Source of the DNA: Bacillus sp. ISL-37
Lineage (GTDB): Bacteria; Bacillota; Bacilli; Bacillales; Cytobacillaceae
DNA: 64,000 bases
Assembly (NCBI RefSeq): GCF_018613315.1
Contig: NZ_JAGGQL010000008.1
Coordinates: 1 to 64,000 of the forward strand
Reading direction: 5' to 3'
How positions within the stretch are numbered: the first letter of the stretch is position 1; the number at the start of each line of letters is the position of its first letter. A program made the position numbers and the translations under genes. The notes under the pieces were generated by a model. The model worked only from the letters and a program-made list of their open reading frames with translations. It searched no databases and was not told the origin of the DNA. Shown piece after piece: positions 8,978 to 50,778 of the stretch.

Positions 8978-9010
8978 TAAAAAAGAAGGGCATGCAGCAT
9001 GCATGCCCTT
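8978..9010 (-). terminator. SR1 intrinsic terminator
   Basis: The stem AAGGGCATGC/GCATGCCCTT with loop ATGCT is followed on the minus strand by CTTTTTT. Confidence 0.85.
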
Positions 9011-9020
9011 TTATCTATTC

Positions 9021-9143
9021 TTATCTTTCTTCTGCACCTTCATGGTCGCAGCAGTTGCATTTTTTTGAATATAATACCGTTACTTTCTCATCTTCGAAAT
9101 GGTCAATTGTTGCATTGCAAGTTTGACAAACGATTGTGCCCAT
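9021..9143 (-). CDS. sr1P: SR1P peptide
   Basis: This 40-aa peptide begins MGTIVCQTCNATIDHFEDEK and carries Cys6, Cys9 and a C-terminal CNCC cluster, all features of the SR1P family. In B. subtilis SR1P binds GapA and promotes RNase J1 association and activity; rnjA is also in this window. AAGGAG lies 7-8 nt before the ATG. The match in sequence, length and location makes the call firm. Confidence 0.93.
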   Translation of the reverse strand: MGTIVCQTCNATIDHFEDEKVTVLYSKKCNCCDHEGAEER

Positions 9144-9171
9144 ATTTTCAAACTCCTTTTCGTTTTGAATT

Positions 9172-9188
9172 TTGAAAGCGCTTTATCA
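9172..9188 (-). promoter_or_regulatory. cre-like element in the SR1 leader
   Basis: TTGAAAGCGCTTTATCA has the palindromic core AAAGCGCTTT expected for CcpA binding, but the right arm deviates from consensus. It lies just downstream of the predicted SR1 start, so it would act as a roadblock. Confidence 0.45.
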
Positions 9189-9200
9189 GTTTCTAATTAT

Positions 9201-19086: not shown

Positions 19087-19225
19087 CTAATCTAAATGAT
19101 AAAAGCTTCCTAATAAGATGATTTAAAAGAGGGAGGTTCTTCACCTCTCTCTTTTAACATTTCTAGTTAACTTTTTACTGTTCATTTGATAGACTTAACA
19201 TTATTACATACTAGAGGTGAAGTTA

Positions 19226-19780
19226 ATGTTGACGATGAATGATATCGTCCGTGATGGACATCCCGTGCTCCGAAAAGTCGCGGAAGAGGTTCCTATGCCT
19301 CCTACACAGGAAGATAAGGCAGTTCTTGAAAGCCTGATTGAATATGTTAAAAACAGCCAGGACCCTGAAGTTGCCCAAAAATATGGTCTCCGTCCTGGAA
19401 TCGGCCTTGCCGCACCACAGATAAATGTATCGAAAAGAATGATTGCTGTTCATGTGACTGATGAAAAAGATAATACATTAAGCCATGCCCTCTTCAACCC
19501 AAAAATCGTCAGCCATTCGGTTGAACGTTCCTACCTTGCAGCCGGTGAGGGATGCCTGTCAGTTGATGAGTCAATCCCAGGTTTCGTGCCGAGATATGCC
19601 AGGATAACGGTAAAAGGGGTAGACCTTGAAGGAAACGAAGTCAAGCTTCGCCTGAAAGGCCTGCCAGCGATTGTATTCCAGCATGAAATCGATCATTTGA
19701 ATGGCATCATGTTTTACGACCACATCAATAAACAAGATCCATACGCTGAAGTTCCCGATGCAAAGCCAGTTGAAAGATAA
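19226..19780 (+). CDS. defB: Peptide deformylase DefB
   Basis: This 184-aa metalloenzyme removes the formyl group from nascent proteins. All three motifs are intact: GIGLAAPQ (about 57-64), EGCLS (about 110) and QHEIDHLNG (about 152-160). I start at the ATG at 19226, preceded by GAGGTG, giving the B. subtilis DefB length; the upstream GTG lies within that ribosome site. Confidence 0.97.
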   Translation: MLTMNDIVRDGHPVLRKVAEEVPMPPTQEDKAVLESLIEYVKNSQDPEVAQKYGLRPGIGLAAPQINVSKRMIAVHVTDEKDNTLSHALFNPKIVSHSVERSYLAAGEGCLSVDESIPGFVPRYARITVKGVDLEGNEVKLRLKGLPAIVFQHEIDHLNGIMFYDHINKQDPYAEVPDAKPVER

Positions 19781-19812
19781 AAGCCGAATCCTGAGTGATT
19801 CGGCTTTTTTGT
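19780..19812 (+). terminator. defB terminator
   Basis: The stem AAGCCGAATC/GATTCGGCTT is followed by TTTT, directly after the defB stop. Confidence 0.88.
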
Positions 19813-19900
19813 GGCTTTAACTACCTTACCAATACTAATATTGTATGTTTTGGCTAAATCGGAGTTCATTTATGACAGGTTTCCGGTTTCACCCTCTAAA

Positions 19901-20452
19901 CCTGTCTGAATTCCGATGGTTTCTTGACAGCTTTTCTCTCAATGGGCTTGTACCTGTCATAATACCGGCATATTCTTGACAGCTTTTCGCCTTTTCACGG
20001 CCAACCTGTCTGAATTACGCCCTTTTCTTGACAGCTTTTCCGGTTTACCCCTTCAACCTGTCATAATTCCCACGGTTTCTTGACAGCTTTTCGCCTTTTC
20101 ATGGCCAACCTGTCTGAATTACGGCCTTTTCTTGACAGCTTTTCTCTCAATGGGCTTGAACCTGTCATAATTCCGGCATATTCTTGACAGCTTTTCACCT
20201 TTTCACCGCCAACCTGTCTGAATTACGGTCTTTTCTTGACAGCTTTTCCGGTTTACTTCTTCAACCTGTCATAATTCCCACGGTTTCTTGACAGCTTTTC
20301 GCCTTTTCACGGCCAACCTGTCTGAATTACGGTCTTTTCTTGACAGCTTTTCTCTCAATGGGCTTGAACCTGTCATAATTCCGGCATATTCTTGACAGCT
20401 TTTCCGTTTTTCCTATTCATCCTGTCATAATAACTACCTCTACAGAACATCA
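19901..20452. repeat. 52-bp tandem repeat array (family A)
   Basis: Ten full units start exactly every 52 bp (19901, 19953 ... 20369), followed by a partial unit at 20421. Each begins CCTGTC, then TGAATT or ATAATT, then TTCTTGACAGCTTTTC at a fixed offset, so CTGTC and GACAG form spaced inverted arms. Units alternate in type, and units 3-6 and 7-10 repeat as a four-unit block. No open frame runs through. The array lies between convergent defB and ykrA. Confidence 0.95.
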
Positions 20453-20502
20453 TCAGGCATTTCACATCAAACCTGTTTCAATTACTCTCGAATTGCTTTG
20501 AT

Positions 20503-21273
20503 CTATATCAACTTCAGCTCTTTCAATCCATGCCAGATACCGTCGTCATCTACATCTCGGGTTACTTTATTCGCCAGTTCTTTTAGTTCTGGAACGGCAT
20601 TCCCCATGGCTACCCCTGTGCCAACTGCCTTTAGCATTTCAAGATCATTCAGTCCATCACCAAAAGCGTACACATCTTCCGGCTTGAAACCTAATCGCTC
20701 CACCATTTTCTTTATCCCTTCCGCCTTAGATCCTCCTGCAGGGAGAATATCCACTGAAAACGGATGCCACCTGATAAATGTGAATTCGGGATAAGTCTCC
20801 CGGTAATACTCTTCTTGCCCTTCTTCACAGAACAAAAGTGTTTGATAGAGCTCTCGGTCTACATAAAACCGGTCATCATGTTCTGGATGAGTGAACTTCA
20901 GGCCACCAAGGCTTGTTTCAATGTAGTTGTGGTGTTTCACTGAGGACTTCATTGTCTTGTGGTTCATAAATACGACTGGATGTCCCTTACCAGAAGCCTC
21001 CTGGTATATTTCTTCTATCTTTTTATTATTCAAAGGGTTTTGGTAAATTGGCTCCCCTTCGAATACAACATATTGCCCATTGAAACTCACAAATGAATCG
21101 ATCTCCAGCTCTTTTCTAAGGCTCTCGAACATGAACGGAGCTCGTCCTGTAGCAATGGCTACGAAAACTCCATTTTCCTTCAATGTTTCGATCGCCTCTT
21201 TAGCAGACGCCGGCAGGTTTTTATCATGGTCCAGCAATGTACCATCAATATCAAAAAATACAATTTTACTCAT
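20503..21273 (-). CDS. ykrA: HAD-superfamily Cof-type phosphatase YkrA
   Basis: This 256-aa phosphatase, probably acting on sugar phosphates or FMN-like substrates, has motif I FFDIDGTLLDHD (about 6-16), a C2-type cap, and the C-terminal FGDGLNDLEML motif. I start at 21273 with AAGGAG upstream; the longer frame to 21324 has no such site. Its place between defB and rpoY-rnjA is as in B. subtilis. Confidence 0.92.
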   Translation of the reverse strand: MSKIVFFDIDGTLLDHDKNLPASAKEAIETLKENGVFVAIATGRAPFMFESLRKELEIDSFVSFNGQYVVFEGEPIYQNPLNNKKIEEIYQEASGKGHPVVFMNHKTMKSSVKHHNYIETSLGGLKFTHPEHDDRFYVDRELYQTLLFCEEGQEEYYRETYPEFTFIRWHPFSVDILPAGGSKAEGIKKMVERLGFKPEDVYAFGDGLNDLEMLKAVGTGVAMGNAVPELKELANKVTRDVDDDGIWHGLKELKLI

Positions 21274-21560
21274 GATCTTCTCCTTCGATGCTTTTCTTGA
21301 AAGTATTTTCTTATTTTTTCCCAAATGCTCTTTTCATAATATTTGTTAAAAACAAAATTTGATTTATATGTAGTAATCACGGTAGTCTATCAAATTCACT
21401 TGTGCGTGTACAGAAATAAGAAATGAAAAACTGTGTCAAAACAATGACAATTTATGTCATTCCAACAATAACCATGAAAAAATTTGCTATTTCATCATAT
21501 AATATAAACAAAAAGATAGGATTTTGAAAAATAATCTTTGCTAAACTTTTCCTTGTTTAC
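21274..21560. other. AT-rich intergenic region
   Basis: I see no gene, repeat or terminator here apart from upstream sequence of ykrA and of the small ORF at 21612. Confidence 0.4.
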
Positions 21561-28831: not shown

Positions 28832-29110
28832 TCATTTCCCCCCTTTGAAAAATTAGAGATTCTTTTTTGGGCTAGAGTGCTTTTGTTTCTTTTTCGAAAA
28901 GCGGCTTGTAAAAGTCAACACTTTACGGAATCCTTTGGAAAAGCTTAACAAAAAGAAAATGCACGTATACATTAATATATCGAGTTTCGAAATATTTTTC
29001 CAGTACTTTATTAGAATTTTTTTATTTTTTTGTATATGTGAATTATCTGATATTAGTAGGTGAAAAGCAGTTCCAATAGGTTATGGATGTAAGAAACAAT
29101 GGTGAGCAAG
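28832..29110. other. AT-rich region upstream of the ABC operon
   Basis: No gene is seen. It should hold the ABC operon promoter on the minus strand, but no unambiguous hexamers stand out. Confidence 0.35.
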
Positions 29111-29335
29111 AAAAATGTCCGTTAGAATTACTCTAACGGACAAAAAGGTGATTCTTATTATGAAATGTGTCCATTAGAAGGGCTCTATCGGACAAATGCG
29201 TAGTTTTACTGAAGAAATGTGTCCTTTAGAGGGGCTCTATCGGACAAATGCGTAGTTTTACTGAAAAATGTGTCCTTTAGAGGGGCTCTATCGGACAAAC
29301 TCGTGCTCTTCCTGAAGAAATGTGTCCATTAGCCT
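29111..29335. repeat. 52-bp tandem repeat array (family B)
   Basis: Units start at 29111, 29163, 29215, 29266 and 29318 (spacing 52, 52, 51, 52; the last is partial). The shared core is AATGTGTCC-xTTAGA-GGGGCTCTATCGGACAAA. TGTCC and GGACA form spaced inverted arms, and in the first unit these extend to a 10-bp hairpin (GTCCGTTAGA/TCTAACGGAC). The sequence is unrelated to family A. Confidence 0.92.
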
Positions 29336-46252: not shown

Positions 46253-46422
46253 AAAGCGCAAGCGCCTTGTTCAGCCCCAAGCGCTGCCCGACTATAACGC
46301 CACATCCTGTGGCAGTCGGGTCTGCACGTCCTGTGCCTCAGAGGTCCTGCCAGTGAAGTCGTTCTTTGACTTCATTGGCAGGACCGAAGCGACTCGAGGG
46401 GCTAGGCGCTGGAGCTAGATTA
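46253..46422. repeat. bcr-like hairpin repeat, copy R3
   Basis: It shares R1's outer arms (AAGCGCCTTGTTCAGCCCC and GGGGCTAGGCGCTGGAGCT) and the inner hairpin GGTCCTGCCAGTGAAGTC/GACTTCATTGGCAGGACC. It also holds an extra hairpin block, about 46288-46340 (GCCCGACT/AGTCGGGT around GCCAC/GTGGC), that R1 lacks. Confidence 0.85.
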
Positions 46423-50603: not shown

Positions 50604-50642
50604 TTGTACAGTCTTAAGCGGACAGTTATGAGAAATTTTGAA

Positions 50643-50778
50643 CCTGTCTGAAGTTGCTCTTTCTTTTGACAGCTTTTCTGCTTTTTCATCTGAACCTGTC
50701 TGAAGTTGCTCCTTCTTCTGACAGCTTTTCTTCTTTTTCCTTCAAACCTGTCTGAAGTTACTTTTTCATCTGACATTT
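50643..50778. repeat. Family A 52-bp repeat, second locus
   Basis: CCTGTCTGAAGTT occurs at 50643, 50695 and 50747, an exact 52-bp period, with TGACAGCTTTTC at the same offset as in the 19.9-kb array. There are two complete units and one partial. It lies between convergent ykwB and ptsI. Confidence 0.93.

Follow-up and report, generated by a model that had tools for sequence, protein, structure and literature searches.

The tandem array at 19901..20452 of the window (the whole stretch of 64,000 nucleotides that was analyzed) belongs to the Bacillales satellites with a 52-nt unit, a class that has already been published (PMC8161180), and in the genus to which it belongs the purine-rich strand of such arrays lies predominantly on the leading strand of replication. 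The class itself is known; what is new here is a replication polarity, near-absolute in two repeat families that are unrelated to each other and come from different bacterial families. Satellites of 52 nt have so far been described without a function. The reading that we prefer, with a probability of only about 0.4, is that the array is a helically phased DNA element tied to replication or segregation, which would serve as a dispersed platform for a candidate DNA-binding or architectural protein.

Within the array, CCTGTC starts at 19901, 19953, 20005, 20057, 20109, 20161, 20213, 20265, 20317, 20369, and 20421, each 52 bp from the last. The first ten of these open full units of the form CCTGTC-N17-TTGACAGCTTTTC-N16 (19901..20420, plus strand), just as the first-pass annotation had counted them at strict 52-bp steps, and the start at 20421 is an eleventh. 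An inverted half-unit (TGACAG..., 19873..19900, plus strand) stands ahead of the first full unit, and orthologous arrays open similarly; at the other end, decaying units 11 and 12 (CCTGTC at 20421, CCTGTT at 20472; 20421..20485, plus strand) carry the degeneration to its end at about 20485. The arms CTGTC and GACAG, described earlier as present in every unit, were found in ten of ten. An alternation of TGAATT in odd and ATAATT in even units had also been noted; it runs through the ten units, except that unit 2 reads ATAATA, and it is broken at the degenerate eleventh start by ATAATAA. TRF assigns the array a period of 52 with 10.2 copies, and also a period of 208 with 94% matches. The latter agrees with the four-unit block of 208 bp proposed before, since units 3-6 and units 7-10 (20005..20420, plus strand) are identical at 193 of 208 positions. 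Because the likeness at a lag of four reaches units 1 and 2 too (1/5/9 and 2/6/10), the array amounts to about 2.5 copies of this block, and unit variants recur within it.

The array sits between two converging genes, which we take from their sequences to encode a peptide deformylase-like protein (19217..19780, plus strand; in the ORF list, with orthologs) and a HAD-type hydrolase (20503..21324, minus strand; in the ORF list). A terminator-like hairpin with a T run follows the deformylase gene (19780..19812, plus strand); it was recognized by eye and is absent from the pattern-scan list. Rfam gave no match on the array. A shorter second array of the CTGTC/GACAG family, with the same polarity, lies at 50639..50775 (plus strand), and TRF places an array of 52-bp period but different sequence (TGTCC...TAGAGGGGCTCTATCGGACA) at 29108..29332. 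The window thus holds two unrelated sequence types of period 52, those at 19901 and 29108. Two RNA genes were recorded besides: SR1 small RNA (RF02376, 86 bits) at window 8982-9196 on the minus strand, and Bacillaceae-1 RNA (RF01690) at 46276-46337 on the plus strand, the latter just above threshold (35.9 vs a gathering score of 35).

A genome-wide search of the kind proposed by the first-pass annotation turned up many further sites of the family. In the genome of the window (G000, 4.74 Mb), CCTGTC-N17-TTGACAG has 105 + 66 = 171 matches and a control pattern has 0, which excludes chance. Within the genus the pattern is present in 17 of 21 genomes: one of them, 66% complete, has a single match, and the other 16 have between 33 and 232 each (180 in G089). 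Of 172 genomes from the family's other genera, 12 have it, with 1 to 3 matches each. Among the matches listed, the carriers include Mesobacillus boroniphilus and M. selenatarsenatis, along with single matches in unrelated MAG records, and judging by the named carriers the genus is probably Mesobacillus. No match was found in the plasmid collection. A comparison of copy number between strains had been proposed as well, and at the locus of the array both presence and unit number vary between species. Among the 18 genomes with both flanking genes on one locus (20 loci examined), 9 lack the array, 1 has a degraded version, and 8 have a recognizable one (weak in G078), with unit numbers that differ. 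Since arrays are gained and lost between species, no single array is essential.

Three further observations concern the records and sequences in which such repeats are met. Three G000 contigs start or end within 52-bp arrays (G000:C2:49, G000:C3:7, G000:C27:45), which indicates that the arrays break assemblies and that copy numbers from drafts are lower bounds. Contigs of JAGGQZ01 (L018, L020, L040, and others), titled Chryseobacterium sp. ISL-80, carry many such arrays and are probably mislabeled Mesobacillus. The palindrome TGTCCTTCAT-N6/7-ATGAAGGACA, often at 52-bp steps, occurs in 18 of 397 genomes and 15 of 135 genera of the order; one arm sequence therefore has a wider distribution than the term "species specific" suggests.

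As far as its available text goes, the description of the class by Subirana and Messeguer in 2021 (PMC8161180) is of repeats with constant sizes of 52 and 20-21 nt and variable sequence in Bacillus and other Firmicutes, with function left open and nucleoid proteins or small RNAs as proposals. Its Table 1 gives B. selenatarsenatis 82 tandem repeats, 59.8% of them of 52 nt, and repeats shared with B. boroniphilus and B. subterraneus. Our sampling of the single-contig genome G074 found 43 arrays with periods of 51-53 bp over 1,160 kb, that is, in the 58 stretches of 20 kb, out of 60, that were picked without regard to arrays. We estimate about 172 arrays of 52-bp period for G074, with many unrelated consensus units; in the sampled DNA they occupy about 1.6% (19,078/1,160,000 bases). 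The arrays are largely non-coding, 39 of 45 in G074 overlapping ORFs of at least 100 aa from a simple ORF caller by less than half. Four genomes of the genus are free of the CTGTC family; small stretches of three of them were sampled, and a 52-bp array of another sequence turned up in two. Over 91 arrays of the genus, the refined consensus is 52 bp long in 86, 53 in 4, and 51 in 1. Inverted arms are significant against 60 mononucleotide shuffles in 58 of 70 arrays, and in 14 of 20 outside the CTGTC group; these 70 are what remained of 96 once arrays were dropped whose TRF consensus was not 52 letters, which were under 150 bp, or which had fewer than 3 units. Native 53-bp arrays with CTTATAAGGG-type arms were seen in G074 at L153:2887-3367, L158:12218-12492, and L164:17382-17926, the first with its purine-rich strand on the lagging side.

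A constraint on the 52-bp spacing, where the first-pass annotation had suggested selection, is supported by the shared period and by a depletion of length changes, but it is mild. In the 91 arrays, 623 of 734 units measure 52 bp, and 53 arrays consist of such units alone; 10 arrays account for 69 of the 111 deviations, and four arrays are natively 53-bp. Aligned to the refined consensus with gaps allowed, the arrays show 168 gap openings to 3,233 substitutions, or 0.052 (0.067 if the raw TRF consensus is used instead), and 0.034 net length changes per substitution. For comparison, the window's orthologous intergenic sequence, arrays excluded, has 94 gap openings to 797 substitutions in G072 and 126 to 1,057 in G089 (0.118 and 0.119), and coding DNA has 0.012. 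Length changes per substitution are hence 2- to 3-fold rarer in arrays than in intergenic DNA, and a moderate constraint is supported. A stricter selected subset of 66 arrays gave 0.011, a value on which we do not rely because shifts within units are read there as substitutions. Among strongly diverged neighboring units, 25 of 102 pairs are unequal in length. Units at random spacing elsewhere in the genome, or freely varying unit length in close relatives, had been named as signs against selection on the period; we looked for both and saw neither.

The arms are conserved as sequence rather than as pairs. They are less variable than the rest of the unit (0.040 vs 0.129), and this holds in every one of the 54 arrays whose palindrome is significant, although such conservation could exist only because expansion needs the arms. 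At paired arm positions, 3 compensatory cells stand against 402 non-standard ones, with A-C at 97 and G-T at 72. So few compensatory pairs beside so many broken ones, with no excess of G-T, favor half-sites in DNA over an RNA hairpin.

The orientation of the arrays was scored against replication direction as read from GC skew. In the four single-contig genomes G072, G074, G080, and G089, multi-unit arrays of the CTGTC family have their purine-rich strand on the leading strand in 44 of 45 cases by regional skew, a count in which some regions are weak (G072 at 753 kb, with a skew of 0.004, was scored as agreeing). The lone exception has a skew of 0.011 and adjoins a skew switch in G072. With single-unit matches counted too, 50 of 53 agree with the sign of the skew. 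The stretches of G072, G080, and G089 were picked for holding the CTGTC family, not by strand, and took in 13 of 13 sites, 14 of 16 sites, and 6 sites among the matches listed, respectively; the terminus of G074 was placed at its GC-skew switch, at 2.3-2.4 Mb. The strand of the family flips between chromosome halves in G072, G080, and G089 (in G089 among the matches listed). In the window, the purine-rich strand of the 19901 array is the minus strand, which is the leading strand here (GC skew -0.06 to -0.09), and both CTGTC arrays follow the rule. As a separate observation, the polarity of the arrays and the GC skew both reverse at 4.69 Mb (L266), close to where the G072 record ends; the origin would accordingly lie ahead of the point where the record begins.

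Neighboring genes, in contexts taken from a simple ORF caller (100 aa), make no difference: the orientation holds for 21 of 21 arrays between genes that run with replication, 5 of 5 with both genes head-on, 6 of 6 between divergent and 11 of 12 between convergent genes, and for the 1 of 1 with one neighbor unseen. Because polarity is the same whatever the direction of the neighboring genes, it follows replication and not transcription, and a polarity that overrides gene direction sets models based on replication or segregation apart from RNA models. It also reaches beyond the CTGTC family. When 52-bp arrays are counted irrespective of sequence, the purine-rich strand is the leading one in 40 of 45 in G074, 17 of 19 in G072, 15 of 15 in G080, and 12 of 12 in G089; it leads in 28 of 33 arrays whose consensus lacks GACAG or CTGTC, and in 38 of 43 when G074 is restricted to the 58 stretches picked without regard to arrays. 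Spacers on the leading-sense strand are purine-rich, with purines at 0.72 of non-arm positions, and the background intergenic purine fraction is 0.526. Four arrays of the genus are counter-examples, their leading strand having a purine fraction under 0.43. Of the 5 arrays in G021, 2 have the purine-rich strand leading, and these are the ones with clear skew; the remaining 3 share a region whose skew is -0.007.

A second family behaves in the same manner. The B. horikoshii-type 52-nt repeat, taken from the available text of PMC8161180, is unrelated in sequence to the CTGTC family and is 0.65 purine. Of 397 genomes of the order, 7 carry it, and all 7 belong to genus g35 (family f11). In G360, 5 plus-strand sites at 0.69-1.64 Mb are followed by 10 minus-strand sites at 2.20-3.48 Mb; in G511, 6 plus-strand sites up to 1.95 Mb are followed by 6 minus-strand sites from 2.58 Mb. 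This is one flip per chromosome, without exception in 27 of 27 sites, with a switch point that was not fixed beforehand (G409, with 4 sites, all plus, is excluded from the 27). Flanking skew in g35 is positive at 22 of 24 plus-strand loci, the two negatives (-0.005 and -0.014) being one site, and in G360 the skew agrees at four places and is negative in two stretches with minus-strand sites. The plus strand of the repeat in the first chromosome half is the purine-rich strand, as in the CTGTC family. The B. coagulans-type family 1_52_139, with a purine fraction of 0.41 in its consensus as printed and 0.59 in the complement, is a real counter-example. Its strands are mixed in G402, with 9 plus and 12 minus sites interleaved, and of six stretches checked, 5 have a local skew above 0.01, which its purine-rich strand matches in 1. 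Polarity is therefore not universal in the 52-nt class.

Among protein binding, action in RNA, and a neutral array, which the first-pass annotation had left side by side, these results favor a replication-oriented DNA element and disfavor the RNA hairpin for want of covariation. On our preferred reading, the array would work at the level of DNA. Inverted half-sites would alternate about every 26 bp (in the CTGTC family with centers about 24 and 28 apart), and one 52-bp unit would make five helical turns, so that successive units would show the same face of the DNA; arithmetically, the published constant sizes of 20-21 and 52, as given in the available text of PMC8161180, are multiples of a 10.4-bp turn. 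With the strand of purine-rich spacers on the leading strand, that is, on the lagging-strand template, the element would be polar in this genus, and a putative bound protein may act together with the machinery of replication or segregation. It counts against this reading that the families within a genome have unlike half-sites, which one sequence-specific protein would not read. A bolder version, which we regard as doubtful, would make the purine-asymmetric 52-bp satellites parts of one directional system spanning the chromosome, in which helically phased protein arrays would be permissive or active one way only. Every array would then have to point with the replication fork, and unrelated sequences would have converged on a reader that senses phase, inverted arms, and strand asymmetry instead of a fixed word.

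A close rival, which we judge nearly as likely as the phased platform that we prefer, sees the arrays as selfish or by-product satellites made by slippage or template switching, with polarity marking where arrays survive. Expansion or survival would require the purine-rich strand, which is prone to hairpins, to serve as the lagging-strand template, and the 52 bp would come from the geometry of the process. Block duplications speak for it, periods of 104, 156, and 208 bp having been found in line with the earlier suggestion of expansion in blocks, and so do the gain and loss of arrays between species and the many unrelated sequences per genome. Folded as single-stranded DNA, moreover, the leading-sense strand is more stable than its complement in 58 of 66 arrays, an advantage that may follow from G content, and both the indifference of polarity to gene direction and the moderate constraint on length would be expected. 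The same explanation has to face the remaining 2- to 3-fold deficit of length changes relative to intergenic DNA; we also count against it that we know of no replication step with a 52-nt ruler.

That each unit is an RNA hairpin in a transcribed small RNA or RNA sponge, as Subirana and Messeguer proposed, we consider unlikely. The available text of PMC8625621 reports that 52-nt satellites of B. coagulans yield RNA-seq reads, and purine-rich spacers on the leading-sense strand would suit a transcript, but a hairpin would predict the reverse of the pair counts given above. Polarity is kept, too, in the five of five arrays where both neighbors are transcribed the opposite way, and a pattern scan of 19700-20600 found no promoter-like site.

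The remaining explanations have little to recommend them. Motifs of the SRS/KOPS type obey the same polarity rule, with the purine-rich strand leading, and the 44 of 45 arrays agree with what directional SpoIIIE/FtsK octamers packed in arrays would show; word counts nevertheless reject this very improbable reading, GAGAAGGG occurring in 1 of 91 arrays, GGGNAGGG in 0 of 91, and GAAGAAG in 9 of 91, with no 5-mer in more than 12 of 33 consensus units outside the CTGTC group. A neutral minisatellite free of constraint is slightly less credible still: it would account for the variation in presence and copy number between species at the locus, but not for a common period across unrelated sequences, conserved arms, and polarity. 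Least probable of all is a REP/BIME-like palindrome moved by a Y1 (IS200/IS605-type) transposase, which the alternating inverted arms recall but which is rejected because no PF01797 is found in G000 (100% complete) or single-contig G089, two repeat-rich genomes, despite 171 and 180 pattern matches. Avoidance of R-loops from read-through transcription was also rejected, since it would allow either orientation between two genes that run with replication and 21 of 21 such arrays show one.

Several known systems resemble these arrays in part. KOPS, SRS, and Chi are biased around the chromosome toward having their purine- or G-rich strand leading, and the arrays share this bias. They differ from KOPS and SRS in being long arrays with inverted arms and not single octamers, with the KOPS and SRS words nearly absent, and their polarity of 44 of 45 exceeds that of the most skewed non-array 8-mer (59 vs 7). 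Like REP/BIME elements, as the available text of PMC2817692 describes them, they are extragenic arrays of palindromic units in alternating orientation and regular spacing; unlike them, they share a 52-bp period over unrelated sequences, abound in two genomes that have no Y1 transposase match, and are polar with respect to replication. The 20-21-nt repeats of Subirana and Messeguer, also of constant size and a multiple of the helical turn, are present in this genus too. In G074 they form a second constant-size class of AT-rich 20-21-bp repeats (TATATCGACCAC, TCGCTATAAAAA, and TCGCCAATAAAA; for example, L122:13500-13612, L124:9803-9895, and L135:7685-7803), equal to two helical turns. They differ from the 52-bp arrays in being shorter and AT-rich and in having the purine-rich strand leading in only 20 of 31, even if single motifs lean (TCGCCAATAAA, 14 vs 3).

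A last comparison is with the 52-nt class itself. In the Subirana and Messeguer literature searched, as far as its available text goes, replication polarity is unreported, and the main text of PMC8161180 has 0 occurrences of "leading," "orientation," "palindrom," and "purine"; their 2020 paper in J. Bacteriol. (10.1128/JB.00229-20) lay outside this scope and may mention orientation. As in the available description of that class (PMC8161180), the arrays studied here have a constant unit, unrelated sequences within one genome, signals accompanied by their reverse, and a non-coding location; to that description, from which both are absent, we add the replication polarity and the test for compensatory pairs.
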